Source: an uncultured Roseicyclus sp. (GTDB lineage: Bacteria > Pseudomonadota > Alphaproteobacteria > Rhodobacterales > Rhodobacteraceae). From it: DNA of 64,000 nucleotides. Made by a program: the position numbers and the translations under genes. The stretch is taken from positions 124,001 to 188,000 of the forward strand of contig CANLXA010000004.1 of the NCBI GenBank assembly GCA_947494975.1. Direction: 5' to 3'. Positions 1,783 to 8,933 of the stretch are shown in pieces (positions within the stretch are counted from its first letter, which is position 1; each line of letters starts with the position of its first letter). Under the pieces are notes generated by a model that had not been told where the DNA came from, ran no database searches, and saw nothing but the letters and a program-made list of their open reading frames with translations.

Positions 1783-1839
1783 GGGAACGGGGCGTGTGTC
1801 TGATCGCCGGTGGGGGTCTGACGTCCACCGGGTCGTGGC

Positions 1840-1878
1840 GTCATCCCCGGGCGATGGCTGGCACCGCCCGGGGATGGC
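1840..1878 (-). terminator. GC-rich hairpin at the 3' end of the puf transcript
   Basis: Arms at 1843-1853 (ATCCCCGGGCG) and 1865-1875 (CGCCCGGGGAT) are perfect complements with an 11-nt loop. The stem extends outward by C-G, a G-U wobble and C-G. It starts a few bases downstream of the pufC stop codon on the coding strand. There is no following U-run, so it is either an imperfect terminator or a 3' stability structure for the puf mRNA. Confidence 0.55.
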
Positions 1879-1883
1879 TCGTG

Positions 1884-3080
1884 TTACTCCGTGGCCTCTT
1901 CCGCGGCCTCGGGTTCTTCGGCCTCCGCCTCCGGCTCTGCCGCTGCGGTTTCCCAGGCTGAGTAATCCGGCGGGCCATCGATCACGTTCAGCTCGGGCCA
2001 ATTCGCGATCACGTTCAGCCCGTTCAGCGGTTGCTGATAGCCCTGGTGACAGGTGCGGCAGGCCGCCAGAGGGGCATCGCCATAAACCGGTCCAAGCCGC
2101 TCTTCTGGATAGACCTCTTCCAGCGGAAGCAGGTGTTCGGCGATCATCTCCTGCACCATCAGGATGCCAAGCGAAGCCGTGCCCCATTGCGGCGTATTCT
2201 GGCCGCCATCGTAGAACGCGCGGGAATTGTGGCAAAAGACACAATTCACCCCCAGCGAATTCGCGATGTAGTTCATGAAGCCATAAGTCCGCTCGGTCTG
2301 CTGGATCAGCGGATCGCCGGGCTGTTGTTGCACCCGGCTGTCGAGGTCATGGACGGCGATCTGGTTGTAGCCGCCGTCTTCGGCCTCAAGCAGATAATGC
2401 TCCAGGTAATCCGACGGCAGGGACGTGAAGTTGGACGTCATCGTCGCGCGGTTCTGGTTGGCGCTCCACCCTTCCGCATTCTCGTTCACCGGGCTGATCC
2501 GATACCAGATGTTGTTGGGAACCGGCTGGCCACGGTGGCAGGTGTAGCAGGTGACGCCGACCTCGTAATTGGCGTTCACATGCGCGTCCCAGTTGACGTT
2601 GATGTTGCGCGTCATCAGCAGCATGTTGCGCGCCACAACCTTTGTATAAAGGTCGTCGTCCGCATATTCGCCGTCATTGGCCCCGGCATGGCAGTAGGTA
2701 CAGCCCTCCTCCGGCGCGACCCATTGGGTGATCGCGCCCATCAGGCGGTTGAAATTGGCGTCGGTCAGATCGCCGAGAACCTGCACGTTCTCGTAGATGT
2801 CACCGGCCAATTCCTCCCCGTCTTCGGGAACAAACGGCTCATCGGTGTAGAAATCCGCGACCGTGGGATCGCCATTCGCCAGATCGCCGATGAACTCCTG
2901 CACATGCATGCCGGTGCCGCGCGGGCCCGTTTGCATCGAGGCCGTGGCATAGGGCTGTCCGAAGCCCACGATCATCGCCGCGACAAAGACCGCCCCGCCC
3001 AGGGCACCGACGGCAATCGCCGGGCCAAAGATGTTGGTGGGATTGTCTTGGTTCCACTTGTCAAACCACTTGGGAAACAT
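1884..3080 (-). CDS. pufC: Photosynthetic reaction centre tetraheme cytochrome c subunit
   Basis: PufC sits on the periplasmic face of the reaction centre and re-reduces the oxidised special pair. The 398-residue product has four CxxCH haem-attachment motifs: CTYCH at 127-131, CYTCH at 178-182, CVFCH at 280-284 and CRTCH at 341-345, so it is of the tetraheme type. The N-terminus has one hydrophobic span (about 20-40) with no lipobox cysteine, so I infer an uncleaved membrane anchor rather than a lipoprotein. The last 20 or so residues form an Ala/Glu-rich acidic tail. It is the last puf gene, with 3 bp between the pufM stop and its ATG. No pufX is present. Confidence 0.96.
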   Translation of the reverse strand: MFPKWFDKWNQDNPTNIFGPAIAVGALGGAVFVAAMIVGFGQPYATASMQTGPRGTGMHVQEFIGDLANGDPTVADFYTDEPFVPEDGEELAGDIYENVQVLGDLTDANFNRLMGAITQWVAPEEGCTYCHAGANDGEYADDDLYTKVVARNMLLMTRNINVNWDAHVNANYEVGVTCYTCHRGQPVPNNIWYRISPVNENAEGWSANQNRATMTSNFTSLPSDYLEHYLLEAEDGGYNQIAVHDLDSRVQQQPGDPLIQQTERTYGFMNYIANSLGVNCVFCHNSRAFYDGGQNTPQWGTASLGILMVQEMIAEHLLPLEEVYPEERLGPVYGDAPLAACRTCHQGYQQPLNGLNVIANWPELNVIDGPPDYSAWETAAAEPEAEAEEPEAAEEATE

Positions 3081-3083
3081 GGA

Positions 3084-4085
3084 TCACTCCTCCCCCCGCG
3101 TGACGCCGCCGAAGTCCTCGTAGGAGCCGTAGGCCTCGTAGCCATAGGCGCCCAGATAATCGGGGGCGAAGTTGTGTTCCTGGGCCCAGATGAACCAGTT
3201 ATCGACGACGGTGCCGGTCAGAAGGATGCCGATCCCGCCGGTGATCGGCGTCAGCACCGCGAACCACCAGGCCCATCTGTGGATGCCCTCCATCGTGGCG
3301 TTGAAGCCCATGGTCCAGCGCCAGAACAGGCCCGCGCGTTCCGAGGCCGTGCCGCGGTCCACGATCTGCTCCAGCTCCCGGTCGCCGCCATAGCGGGAGA
3401 CGGCCAGGATGGTCGCGCCATGCATCGCGAAGAGCAGGACGGAGCCGTAGAGGAACACAATCGAGAGGCAGTGGAACGGGTTGTAGTAGAGGTTCCCGTA
3501 GCGGATCGAGAAGGCCGTGGTCCAATCGAGGTGCGGGAAGATGCCGTAGGGAACGGCTTCGCTCCACGAGCCCATCAGGATCGGACGGAACAGGCCGAGC
3601 ACAAGGAACAGCCAGATCGCCGCGAGGAACGCCCAGGCGATGTGTTTGCCCATCTGGTGTTCGACCGCCAGCAGGTAGGTTCTGAGCCACCAGCTCATCA
3701 CCGAGATCAGCAGGAAGAAGCTGGAGATGATGTACCAGCCGCCATCGTTGAGCGGCGGCATCCGAAGGCCCCATTCCGGGCCCGGCGGCTCCAGCGCCAG
3801 CCAGAACAGCTGCCGGATGAATTGCGGGATCGACCAGTCGACCTGCGACAGCATGTTGAAGCCGACGATGTTGAACCAGGCAAGGCCGGTGGCCAGGCTG
3901 ACCAATCCGGCCCAACCCAGGTAGATCGGGCCAAGCTGTGCATTGCCTAACCAGCCAAGCAGGGTCGAAAACCGGGCTCCGCTTGTCCGTTCACGGGCCA
4001 GCGTGCCCTGATCGTCCATGCCGACTTCCGGCTCGCCCTGAACCTGCACCTGGGTGAAGAAGTTCTGATATTCGAGATAAGCCAT
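3084..4085 (-). CDS. pufM: Photosynthetic reaction centre M subunit
   Basis: This is one of the two five-helix core subunits of the type II reaction centre; it binds bacteriochlorophylls, bacteriopheophytin, QA and the non-haem iron in the inner membrane. Key residues align with Rhodobacter M at an offset of +3: His205 (special-pair ligand, in YYNPFH), His222 and His269 (iron ligands, in AMHGAT and GIHRWAWW) and Glu237 (iron ligand). The length of 333 residues is slightly above the roughly 308 of Rhodobacter, with an extended C-terminus. The gene sits between pufL (3-bp gap) and pufC. Confidence 0.97.
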
Positions 4086-4088
4086 GTC

Positions 4089-4988
4089 TCACTCCCCTCC
4101 CACAAGCACGGGGGCGTTCGCGCCGATCGTGGCGGCGCCCGTGGTGTCATAGACCACGCCCTGGTCCGGCCAGATCGGCAGGTCGAGCCACCAGTTCCAC
4201 CATTCCGGCCAACCGGCCGTCCAGACCGGGCCGGAGATCACGATGCAAACGGCACTCCAGAACCCGGCGGCCAGCGCCAGGAACAGACCCACGCGGTGGA
4301 TGCCAAGCGTGCCGACCGAATAGCCGATGAAATCGCGGAAGAAGCTGTCCTCATGATCCGGTGTCTTCATCAGCGTGCCCTTTTCGGGGTTCGCCGCCGA
4401 CAGGATCAGGCCACCATGCAACGCCAGCGCGAAGGTTGTGGTGAAGAACAGCGTCACCGCGATCATGTGCGCCGGGTTGTAGTGGAAGTGCAGGTAGGAA
4501 TACCCCACATTCGACACCCAATCGAGGTGGCTGAAAATCCCGTACGGGAAACCATGGCCCCACGCGCCCATCAGAAGCGGGCGGAACACCACCAGCGTGA
4601 CATAGGCGAAGATCGCGAAGCTGAAGGCGAAGGGGACGTGATAGCCGATGCCCAGCTTGCGGCTGATCTCAACCTCGCGCAGGGCCCAACTGACGAAGGC
4701 GCCGATCGCGCAGAACGTGATGATCTGCCAAAGGCCCCCCTCCATCAGCGGCGCGAACCCAAGCCCGTAGCTCAGATCCGGCGGGGCGATGTTGATCGTC
4801 CAGGGGTTGAAGTTGCCTTGCATGGCCGCGCCCCAGAAAATCAGGATCGTCCCCAACAATGCAAAAAATGCGGTCGTGACGCCGAAGAAGCCCACGTAGA
4901 ATGGACCCACCCAGAAGTCGAACAGATCACCGCCAACCAGCGTCCCACCCCGGACGCGATATTTCTTCTCGAAGCTCAGCAAAGCCAT
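4089..4988 (-). CDS. pufL: Photosynthetic reaction centre L subunit
   Basis: L pairs with M in the reaction centre and carries the active electron-transfer branch and the QB side. The translation of 299 residues shows the conserved ligands at +1 relative to Rhodobacter: His154 (accessory bacteriochlorophyll), His174 (special pair, in NPAHM), and His191 and His231 (iron). The C-terminus, after the run of Trp residues, is about 17 residues longer than the 282-residue Rhodobacter protein. It is the first gene after the pufBA segment and is separated from pufA by a 132-bp spacer holding a GC-rich hairpin. Confidence 0.97.
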
Positions 4989-5052
4989 GCGCTCTCTCCG
5001 CGTTTGGCGGCATGTCCCTTTGGTCAGCCGTCAGTCATGTCGTTTTCGGTTT

Positions 5053-5086
5053 GCCGCGGGCGAGACGGTGAGACCCCGCCCGCAGC
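5053..5086 (-). promoter_or_regulatory. pufA-pufL intercistronic hairpin
   Basis: Bases 5056-5062 pair with 5077-5083 (GCGGGCG with CGCCCGC), followed by one C/A mismatch and two more pairs, around a 14-nt loop. In Rhodobacter capsulatus a hairpin in this position protects the upstream pufBA mRNA from 3'-5' decay and so raises LH1 over reaction-centre production. The same role is inferred here from position and stability only. The 4989-5122 spacer has no other recognisable feature. Confidence 0.6.
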
Positions 5087-5122
5087 TGTTATCAATGCCG
5101 TGAAGCTATGGATGTCGGGGGC

Positions 5123-5290
5123 TTACTCGCCGCCGAACCCCATGTTCATCGCGGCAGACTCGAACCAGTTCATGCCGGACGACAGAACCACCAGGTGGAT
5201 CATCGCTGCCAGCAGGAAGAGGAATACGCCCTGCGCCACGAACACGCGACGCGGGTCGAAAATGAGCCAGACTTTGTAGAACTTAGCCAT
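5123..5290 (-). CDS. pufA: Light-harvesting LH1 complex alpha subunit
   Basis: A short gene of 55 residues beginning [20 protein letters not shown]. The pattern is that of LH1 alpha polypeptides: a polar N-terminus with [11 protein letters not shown], one transmembrane helix and the bacteriochlorophyll-binding His32 in the AAMIHLVVL segment. The product assembles with PufB into the ring around the reaction centre. The ATG at 5290 lies 14 bp after the pufB stop and is preceded by a purine-rich GAGGAAGGGG stretch. The stop is TAA at 5123-5125. Confidence 0.96.
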
Positions 5291-5304
5291 TCTCTACCCC
5301 TTCC

Positions 5305-5454
5305 TCAGAACCAGGGCGCCCAGATGTACGTGGCGATATGAGCAACAAGGGCAACGGCCGAGAAAAGCCAGAGCCCGCTCATATACACCGCGTGCAGCTC
5401 TTGCGCCTGTTCGTCGGTGAGACCTGTGAAAGACAGATCGGAATTATCAGCCAT
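5305..5454 (-). CDS. pufB: Light-harvesting LH1 complex beta subunit
   Basis: 49 residues starting [20 protein letters not shown] and ending IWAPWF, nearly the same as Rhodobacter LH1 beta. His39 in the single transmembrane helix is the bacteriochlorophyll ligand. The start is the ATG at 5454 because GGAGG lies five bases upstream and family proteins begin at this Met; an upstream in-frame ATG at 5487 would add 11 residues with no family match. First cistron of the pufBALMC segment. Confidence 0.97.
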
Positions 5455-5669
5455 ATTTTCCTCCGGAACGTCAGACTGATGCCGCAAACCCTGCGGCCGG
5501 GCCCCGACAAGGCCTCATTGCCCTGTCGGCATTCCACCCTTCGGCGCGCTTGCGCATGCCTCAGATGAACTTGGCCCCGGCTCCGGTCGTCACGCCGAGA
5601 ATATCGTTTGGGCCGATCCGCTCGCCTGGGTCTAGACAGGCTCGAATACGCGGGTTAGGCCCGAATTCG
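5455..5669 (-). promoter_or_regulatory. pufQ-pufB leader with two hairpins
   Basis: A 215-bp spacer without a gene. One perfect hairpin has arms GCCGCA (5481-5486) and TGCGGC (5492-5497). A longer one spans 5504-5529, with CCGACA pairing TGTCGG and GGC pairing GCC around a single mismatch. Both lie in the 5' leader of pufB on the coding strand. In related bacteria this interval affects puf mRNA processing and stability. I cannot identify a -35/-10 pair with confidence. Confidence 0.45.
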
Positions 5670-5891
5670 TCAGGCCGCGAAGATCATCGGTGTGATCATT
5701 CCGGCTTGGCTCCAGGCCCGTTTGATCGGGCCCTTATCGGTCAGGCTCCCCGACTTGATTGCCGCCAGGGCCCATGTCAGCGTGGCCAGCGGCAATGTCG
5801 CCAGGAAGATGATCCCGAAGTAGATCATGAACTCCGTTTTCGGCGGCTTGGTGCGTGCCGGAACGGGGCTGTTCGAGGTCATGTCACTCAT
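5670..5891 (-). CDS. pufQ: PufQ, bacteriochlorophyll/puf assembly factor
   Basis: 73 residues with one transmembrane segment ([20 protein letters not shown]) and a C-terminus [16 protein letters not shown] typical of PufQ. PufQ is implicated in delivering bacteriochlorophyll intermediates for pigment-protein assembly. The ATG at 5891 is chosen because an AGGAGGAGGAG run lies just upstream; the ATG overlaps the bchZ stop by 8 bp, pointing to translational coupling. A second ATG at 5882 is also possible. An upstream start at 5918 lies inside bchZ and is not needed. Confidence 0.88.
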
Positions 5892-7368
5892 TTGATTTCT
5901 CCTCCTCCTCGAAATCAAAACCGGCAGGCGCCAGGCGCTTGACGGTGTCTTTCATCACCCGCTCCGCCCCGCCTTCGAGCGCGGCCTTTTCGGCGGCGTC
6001 GCGAAGGGTCTTGGCGGCAGAGATGCGGGTGAGAATGGGGTGTTCGGCCACGATCCGATCCAGAAGCGCCTGGGCGTCCGGCTCCCACGGGAAATCGCGG
6101 CGCAGGGTGGCGGGTGTGGCGGCGGCGCTGTCCATCTCGCTGCCCAGCGGCAGAATATGGAACAGCGCATCGAAAAGGCCATTACAGACCTCTTGCAGCA
6201 TATAGGTGGCCCCGGCGTAGCCCATGAATGGCGTGCCGGTGGCGCGGCGGATCGCGGCGCCCGGGAAGCTCGCCGGGATGAAGGCGGGCTTGGGGCCGTG
6301 ACCGGCCGCCATTTCGGCCAGATACATCTTTTCGTTGATCGACCCCATCAGGATCAGCGGGCGTTTTTCGCTGATCATGGCGCGGACCTGTTCATTGTCC
6401 GTCTTTTTGCCCGCCACGCGGGCGACGGCGAAGGCGCAGGGGAAGCCGAGGTCATCTTCCAGGAACTTGCGGATGCCGCGCGCGTAGGTCTCATTCGCGA
6501 CGATGCCGAAGGAGGCGGTTGCGAAGAAATCCTGCGTGACAGACCGCCAGAGGTCCCACACCGGCTTGATGGTGGAGTGCTTTTCCTGCTCGATGAACGG
6601 TTCGGGGTCGAGGCCCGTCAACTCACCCAGCTTCCGCAGGAATTTCGTGGTCGATTCCACGCCAATCGGCGCTTGCAGGTAAGGCTTGGCGAGGACTTCG
6701 CACAGGCCACGGCCGAACTCGCGATACATGCAGATGTTGACGTCGGCATTCACCAGATCGCGCATCTCCGCCACATGGGCGCCCAGCGGCATAACCATGT
6801 TCACCTCACATCCGATGCCTTCGACGAGGCGGCGGATTTCGGCGAGGTCGGAGGGCATGTTGAAGGTGCCATACATCGGCCCGAGGATGTTGACGCGGGG
6901 GGCGCTGCCCTCTTCACGCTTCTTCTCGGGCGGCATACGACCCTTGGTCATGCCGAATTCGGTGAAGATCCAGGTCATCGCGCGGTCGGCGCTTTCCCAT
7001 TGGTCTTCGTCGATGGTGCGCGGCAGGAAGCGCTGGATGTTGGTGCCCATGGGCGTGACGCCGCCGCCGATCATCTCGGCAATCGACCCGGTGACGACCA
7101 CGGCTGGAAGCGCAGGGTCAAGCGTGCCCCAGGCGCGTTTCATCGCGCCTTCGGTGCCATCACGGCCAAGCTCTTCCTCGCCGAGGCCGGTGACAACGAT
7201 GGGTAGCTCATGCGGCGGCAGGCCGTCGGTGTAATGCAGGACGGAGGTGACGGGCAGGTTTTCGCATCCGACCGGACCGTCGATGATGCATTGCAGGCCT
7301 TTGACCGCGGTGAAGGCGTAAACGCTTCCCCAATAGCCGCCTGCCCTGTCATGATCCTGGATCAGCAT
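5884..7368 (-). CDS. bchZ: Chlorophyllide a reductase subunit Z
   Basis: BchZ and BchY form the catalytic component of chlorophyllide a oxidoreductase, a nitrogenase-like enzyme that reduces the B ring to the bacteriochlorin level with electrons from BchX. The 494-residue product begins [20 protein letters not shown] and contains [10 protein letters not shown] near residue 35 and the [10 protein letters not shown] region typical of the NifK/BchZ fold. The ATG overlaps the bchY stop by 7 bp. The C-terminal tail EEEEKSNE overlaps the pufQ start. Confidence 0.95.
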
Positions 7369-8933
7369 TTCACACCACCATTCGCGGCCATGCGGGCCTT
7401 TTCGGCGCGTTCCAGCTTTTTCAGGTTCTGGGCGCGGAAATCGGGGCGCAGGTTCGGCGCGCCTTCCCAGACGCCTGCCGTATCTTCATGGCCGACGCCT
7501 TCGAAGAATTCGCGCATATGCGCCATGCGGTCCTTGTTGGCCATGGCGGCGTTGACGACTTGGCCGAGAGACCCGGCCCCGGCGGGGCCCATGAGGGGAC
7601 GCGCGGAGATGAGGTTGGTGAAGTAGAGCGACGGGATGCCAAGCTCCTTGCCCTTTTGCACAACGGGGGTGGTGCCGATGGCGAGGTCGGGCTGGATCGC
7701 CTCCATCGCGGCGCAGTCGTCTTCCAGCGAGGCGCGGAATTTCACTTTCACGCCCCGGGATTCGAGCCATTCCAGATCGGGGGCGGACCAAGGCGTCTTG
7801 GCGCAGGCTGTGCCCACGTAAGGAACGTCCGCGCCGGATTCGATCAGCAGGCGCGCGACGAGAAGCTCGGATCCTTCATAGCCCGACAGCGTGATCGTGC
7901 CCTTGATCGGAACCGACGCAAGCGCGCCCTTGATCGCCGGCAGGAAGGCGTTTTGCGCCTCGGCCACCTTTTCGGACGGAACGTTGTAAGCCTCGCCAAT
8001 CGCGGCGAGCCATGCGGCGGTGCCATCGTGGCCCACGGGCGCGGACCCAACCACGGTACGACCCGCAGCTTGGAATTCACGCACAGCGCTGGTGTAAAAG
8101 GGGTGGATCGCGGCCACCACCTCACTGTCCAACGCGGAATAGAGCTCACGCCACTCACGGCAGGGAACGACCGGACCTGCCGCCAGACCGAGTGGCGCGA
8201 GCATCCCTGCGATTCCCAAGGGATCCGCAGGGAACATTTCGCCCAACAGCGTAACTGTTGGACGGTCTGAAACGCCCGAGACAGGAGCCATAACTGGACC
8301 GGCCTCCACTTCCTGTCGGGCATAATTGAGCATCGCCCCGGCGAGGACGTCTTTCGCCTCCGCATGGGTCGGTACTCCGAAGCCCGGAACGTCGATACCG
8401 ACGATCCGGACCCCATTGATTTCGTCGGGCAGAAGCCGCAACGGAACTCCGGACGCCGTGGGCACGCAGAGGTTGGTGACCACAATGGCGTCGTAACGCT
8501 CGGGGTCGGCCATCTCGTGCACGGCGTCTCTGATGTCTTCAAACAACTTGCCGGTGACAAGCGATTCAGAATTGAACGGGACGTAGCCCACCGACCGGCG
8601 GGCGCCGTAGAAATGGGATACGAAGGTCAGGCCGTAGACGCAGCAGGCCGATCCGCTCAGGATCGTACCAACGCGGCGCATCCTGAGGCCCACGCGGAGC
8701 GAGCCGAAGGCAGGGCACATCGATTGCGGCTTGTCGTGCGGGCCCTGCGGGTAGTCCTTGGCGAATTGATCCAAAATCTCGGATTTGCCGGCGCTGCGCG
8801 CGGCGGCCTCCATCTCGCCCGCACCGGCGTGACAGCCCATACCGTCACCACCGGAGGGCGCTCCTGTTTCGATGGCCTCACCTTCGATCACCTCCACCTC
8901 AGCGGTGGCGTCGTATGTCATCTCGGCGCTCAC
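7362..8933 (-). CDS. bchY: Chlorophyllide a reductase subunit Y
   Basis: Partner of BchZ in the NifDK-like catalytic component. The 523-residue protein has an acidic N-terminal region, then the family core with [19 protein letters not shown] and the Cys-bearing [18 protein letters not shown], where cluster-ligating cysteines are expected. The start is the GTG at 8933, which overlaps the stop of the preceding 63-codon gene by 4 bp (GTGA). No good Shine-Dalgarno precedes the GTG, so bchY translation probably depends on ribosomes finishing that small gene. Confidence 0.94.

Follow-up and report, generated by a model that had tools for sequence, protein, structure and literature searches.

The puf operon and a hairpin between pufA and pufL

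The 64-kb stretch of DNA analysed here (the window) carries a puf operon on its minus strand, with the genes in the order pufQ, pufB, pufA, pufL, pufM, pufC. The names of pufB (LH1 beta, 49 aa; 5305..5454, NCBIfam NF040862), pufA (LH1 alpha, 55 aa; 5123..5290, NCBIfam NF040861), pufL (reaction centre L, 299 aa; 4089..4988, TIGR01157), pufM (3084..4085, TIGR01115) and pufC (reaction-centre cytochrome; 1884..3080, NF040706) are borne out by both NCBIfam and Pfam, and that of PufQ by Pfam. The frame 3' of pufC reads in translation as a putative dxs, and an RNase E/G gene is present. A 10-bp hairpin (CCGACAGGGC/GCCUUGUCGG) is seen in the fold between pufQ and pufB on the minus strand (5504-5529), and could possibly act as a 5' guard of pufBA.

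The pufA-pufL spacer on the minus strand (4989..5122) measures 134 nt from the pufA stop (5123) to the pufL ATG (4988), rather than the 132 bp previously given. A hairpin had been placed within it at 5053-5086, and these coordinates proved exact. Read on the puf mRNA strand, from 5086 to 5053, this element (here called H1, the proposed stabiliser of the pufBA mRNA 3' end) folds strongly into a single 13-bp helix of 10 Watson-Crick and three G-U pairs, closed by a loop of 8 nt and built around the core 5'-CGGGCG / CGCCCG-3'; the "7+2 bp" stem of the sequence-only reading was an undercount. H1 begins 36 nt past pufA and stops 64 nt short of pufL.

Folded alone, H1 reaches -24.8 kcal/mol. With its flanks (41 nt) it reaches -26.3 kcal/mol (z = -4.8), a value that none of 200 shuffles attained. 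Stability is a property of this element and not of the spacer in its entirety, which is unremarkable (z = -0.57, with 60 of 200 shuffles equal or better). Along the minus strand of the window, only 8 of 21,320 overlapping 41-nt segments (step 3) are at least as stable, H1's own overlaps counted, and among separate places it ranks as the fourth most stable. There is no U-tract directly 3' of the stem, and a terminator scan finds nothing at H1. Covariance models of Rfam 15, searched over positions 3000-7400, hit nothing at H1 with E values as high as 5.

Another stretch of the spacer had been suspected of forming a hairpin before the pufL ribosome-binding site (GACGGC...GCCGCC AAA GCGGAGA). It folds like its shuffles (median z -0.40) and an alignment of 60 rows yields no consensus pair, and we therefore make no structural claim for it. 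As sequence, GACGGC...GCCGCCAAACGCGGAGA (4996-5034, minus strand), a motif just ahead of pufL, is conserved in many relatives, and 112 of 190 spacers have GACGG on the downstream side of H1.

Conservation of the hairpin among relatives

PufL loci were drawn from the best 80 of 592 relatives, from 13 genomes of the genus (nine with pufL) and from 394 genomes of the family, 166 of them matching; for the latter, 30 loci were displayed and 100 regions retrieved, and 15 further loci were added individually. Among 229 loci, 225 yielded spacers (L057, L068, L154 and L177 having none), 201 of them distinct. A later set held 216 distinct spacers, 190 of which were counted as belonging to the family, the membership of named loci being judged by record titles and likeness. 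One family locus, L175, had been grouped with the outsiders before counting; a CGGGCGG arm is likewise present in the best helix of this locus.

When the best helix of each spacer was chosen without reference to any motif, 178 of the 190 distinct family spacers had GGGC in the 5' arm of that helix, where 40 shuffles of each spacer lead one to expect 27.7; the earlier set gave 165 of 175. In 185 of the 190 the best helix also outdid 57 or more of 60 shuffles of the spacer it came from, and the same was true of just 15 of 26 spacers from outside the family. The H1 region, picked by pairing, has a median z of -4.94 (n = 189), and stems of this type span 12-14 bp (quartiles). At one locus (L239) the core is gone and a hairpin is retained with different letters. 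The presence of H1 is thus not a matter of chance: the hairpin is conserved throughout the sampled family, in nearly all of the relatives studied, with a core conserved in sequence. This is new, in that titles and abstract openings of the top matches in the open-licence literature contained no description of family-wide conservation.

The unanchored counts are those of 178/190 and 165/175. The anchored arms, and the alignment described below, were fixed on a GG motif, so that the invariance of GG in them arises by construction; the anchored picks furthermore include wrong structures (e.g. at L128 and L226), which makes their figure of 190/190 unusable as a count of presence.

Covariation and strand bias

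Alignment A1 comprised 75 of 127 diverse rows, selected and trimmed by pairing score; 95.9% of its cells are paired, a percentage that leans towards structure because of that selection. Two-sided changes occur in 71 cells and touch 7 of the 11 pairs, while two core pairs are invariant and hence uninformative. None of 500 shuffles reached any of five covariation measures, with the reservation that kinship alone can exceed shuffles of this kind, and slid versions of the alignment pair in 37-55% of cells.

The strand on which the constraint acts can be read from the wobble pairs. Over 190 rows and 10 pairs, G-U was found in 116 cells and A-C in 8 in the sense of the mRNA. On a PufL tree (183 rows, the 7 of the 190 with an uncertain register being omitted) the minimum numbers of changes are 91 and 7. 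The excess survives the choice of register, at 101:8 when only Watson-Crick pairs define it and 99:12 when it is chosen to favour the antisense strand. Since a G-U pair in the mRNA becomes A-C on the complementary strand, the excess argues for a constraint on the RNA of the puf mRNA strand. The sense fold is also the more stable in 149 of the 190 spacers, the antisense fold in 35, and the two are equal in six.

The same figures bear on whether the inverted repeat acts as DNA, in the form of a protein-binding palindrome, or in an antisense transcript, as a plus-strand terminator. Dimeric proteins often bind inverted repeats, and in 40 of 190 spacers the A-rich 5' flanks amount to T-rich stretches when read on the plus strand (a flank count, which shares the flaw of the anchored picks). 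However, an excess of G-U over A-C of 116:8, and still of 99:12 in registers favouring the antisense, demands pairing in the mRNA sense, and on the plus strand the fold of H1 drops from -24.8 to only -17.4 kcal/mol. We consider a role as DNA or in antisense RNA extremely unlikely.

Probable role of H1 in the decay of puf mRNA

Intercistronic hairpins that stabilise the 3' end of pufBA were reportedly described by Klug et al. (1987, EMBO J 6:3515) in Rhodobacter capsulatus and R. sphaeroides. Like the Rhodobacter hairpin, H1 lies between pufA and pufL, has a G+C-rich stem and lacks a U-tract, and an AU-rich pufL start follows downstream of it; it differs in that its function is predicted and that the operon of the window carries pufC. 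One genome of our set (G063) we take to be R. sphaeroides 2.4.1, since 132 of 132 residues agree with a reference stretch of PufL and its pufL coordinates fit as well (see below). Its spacer has an H1-like hairpin, GTCGCGGGCGGCACCCACCGCCCGCGAC (GTCGCGGGCGG...CCGCCCGCGAC), and the core shared by the two is CGCGGGCGG...CCGCCCGCG. Provided that this naming of G063, itself our inference, is right, H1 appears to be homologous to a hairpin in a species where its effect is known.

PMC6238624 places RNase E sites of R. sphaeroides at 1,982,467, in the spacer, and at 1,982,393, in the 5' part of pufL, and the pufL ATG of G063, at 1,982,420, fits these positions. On G063 coordinates, 34 nt separate the 3' side of the stem from the spacer site further downstream. 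The site in pufL lies within AAAATATCGCGT, and the codons that correspond to it in the window read AAATATCGCGT. The corresponding start of pufL in the window is likewise AU-rich (AAAUAUCGCGU): codons 9-12 (AAAUAUCGCGUC; 4953..4964, minus strand) are the same codons as those of the RNase E site mapped in R. sphaeroides. AAR-TAY is kept at these codons in 190 of 190 rows, which the Lys-Tyr codons alone would explain, and the AU-richness could be fixed by them as well.

The strength of a hairpin is in itself no proof that it stabilises a message. Nevertheless, we regard it as very probable that H1 is a cis-acting hairpin in the puf(Q)BALMC mRNA, which stalls decay from the 3' end and so provides for a long-lived pufBA message and more LH1 than reaction centre. 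For this organism we infer the cleavage, the stalling and the transcript ratio as follows. RNase E would cut the puf mRNA downstream of H1, in the spacer and at the pufL start; 3'-to-5' exonucleases would erode the upstream piece and stall at H1; a long-lived pufBA fragment would remain, and the pufLMC part would decay faster. With pufBA outliving pufLMC, one operon would yield more LH1 than reaction-centre protein. The sequence-only reading had already taken the hairpin for a pufBA stabiliser in a Rhodobacter-like position, and this interpretation gains support from the position and stability of H1, the missing U-tract, the covariation, the strand-specific wobbles and the homology to the hairpin of the presumed R. 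sphaeroides.

An excess of pufBA could also arise with no difference in decay, if H1 were a partial terminator (attenuator) at which some polymerases stop past pufA; a strong G+C-rich hairpin between operon genes would suit such a role, and termination would yield the same ratio. The lack of a U-tract, however, means that H1 is not an ordinary (intrinsic) terminator. In flank counts, which are affected by the wrong structures among the anchored picks, at least five T within 8 nt past the stem are found in just 1 of 190 spacers, and A makes up 43%, T 13%, of the nine bases that follow it. Furthermore, half-lives do differ in R. sphaeroides: in PMC10253847 pufBA has a half-life of ~20 min and the pufL segment one of ~5 min, in control cells under phototrophic growth, and the authors state that deleting a hairpin that stabilises the pufBA 3' end alters the RC:LH1 ratio. 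Attenuation at H1 is therefore improbable in our judgement.

The conserved stem is double-stranded, which leads to the question of whether it is an endonuclease (RNase III) site, or one of sRNA release, instead of an end protector. Its length, with quartiles of 12-14 bp, is short for an RNase III substrate. RNase III and sRNAs do act on puf mRNA in R. sphaeroides, according to PMC11354728 and PMC8307010. The puf sRNAs named in PMC10253847, however, come from the puf 3' UTR (PcrX) or lie antisense to part of pufL, not from the spacer. Such a processing site is, in our view, very unlikely, and protection of the pufBA 3' end by H1 is the reading that we retain.

If so, segmental mRNA stability, a textbook case from two Rhodobacter species, would rest on a hairpin that is common to the phototrophs sampled in this family, roseobacter-type genera (as judged by record titles) included, and the rule that sets the LH1:RC stoichiometry would become testable in many isolates.

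Matches to the hairpin elsewhere

A covariance model (R1) was built from 75 relatives, the window among them, and the score of H1 itself is therefore raised by construction. In a full scan of 864 kb out of the ~4,548 kb of its own genome (~19%, window included), H1 scored 42.6 bits, a hairpin after pufC 24.3 bits and the next match 21.3 bits. A wider search of the same genome, in which just 150 of 10,269 candidates received a score, failed to pick up the hairpin after pufC and thus does not show that H1 is unique.

Searches of other family genomes also scored 150 candidates each. Among 12 genomes with pufL, several of whose loci are part of R1, ten had the puf copy as their top match; this copy came second in G187 and was absent among the matches listed for G242. 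Twelve family genomes without pufL gave matches of up to 33.9 bits, which indicates that this type of hairpin is not specific to puf; genes of other operons in the family may likewise have such stems in the gaps between them. The 33.9-bit look-alike, GGCGCGGGC...GCCCGCGCC, lies at ~1485-1554 of locus L274, in a family genome with no pufL match (G021), between frames whose translations read as an ABC-transporter substrate-binding protein and its permease. At the pufA-pufL spacers of 26 loci from outside the family R1 has no match, except possibly weak ones (10 matches up to E 0.5), and the model therefore does not carry beyond the family.

The REP elements of Escherichia coli malE-malF are intercistronic stabilising hairpins, and H1 would work as they do, with an intergenic stem at which 3' exonucleases are halted, which gives the parts of one message different lifetimes. 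Unlike REP, H1 shows no sign of being a dispersed repeat: in the 864 kb scanned around and beyond the window, nothing outside the puf operon scores above 21.3 bits, against 42.6 bits for H1.

A second hairpin after pufC

The second match in the window (1838-1880, minus strand; 24.3 bits, with E 0.0024 for the window and E 0.033 over 864 kb) corresponds to a hairpin at 1842..1876 on the minus strand, 7 nt past the pufC stop, which we call H3. It has a 15-bp stem, a 5-nt loop and the core CGGGCGG/UCGCCCG. With its flanks it folds at -31.9 kcal/mol (z -5.14), and no other place on the minus strand of the 64-kb window has so stable a local fold at 41 nt; no U-tract follows it. H3 is new here, and represents a second hairpin of the H1 kind in the puf operon.

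Of 53 family rows with pufC, the window included, 34 carry GGGC in the 5' arm of the best helix within 130 nt past the gene, where 12.8 would be expected from shuffles, and a U-tract follows the helix in three. Only in 33 of the 53 rows does this helix beat 38 or more of 40 shuffles, from which we conclude that the element after pufC is less general than H1. H3 is probably a protector of the 3' end of the pufLMC segment. A covariance model is now available for the element, and this twin of H1 predicts a second protected end.

The core as a possible recognition sequence

The retention of CGGGCG as letters raises a further possibility, namely that the core is a recognition element, for a part of the degradosome or for an RNA-binding protein, which marks the 3' ends of the antenna and reaction-centre messages beyond serving as a stable clamp. 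We hold this to be unlikely. Consistent with it are the GGGC 5' arms that 178 of the 190 best helices show when picked without anchoring, and the recurrence of the same core after pufC.

A further indication comes from pair 8 of the stem, where the 3' partner of the core's third G has changed to leave a G.G mismatch, with the 5' arm unchanged, in L126, L128, L141, L148, L150, L196, L201, L202, L204, L208, L215 and L242. Counted as fewest changes on a quick PufL tree of 150 residues, these apparently represent 12 separate changes. At this pair the fold reaches -20.2 kcal/mol with G.G, -17.1 to -18.5 kcal/mol with other mismatches and -24.6 kcal/mol with the full G-C, and the pattern is thus partly ordinary, G.G being the least costly mismatch there in the energy model. 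Yet G.G is equally cheap at pairs 6, 7 and 9, where it was seen 0, 2 and 0 times, respectively, and this counts against a plainly energetic explanation. As for the asymmetry between the two arms of the H1 core, much of it is G-U tolerance.
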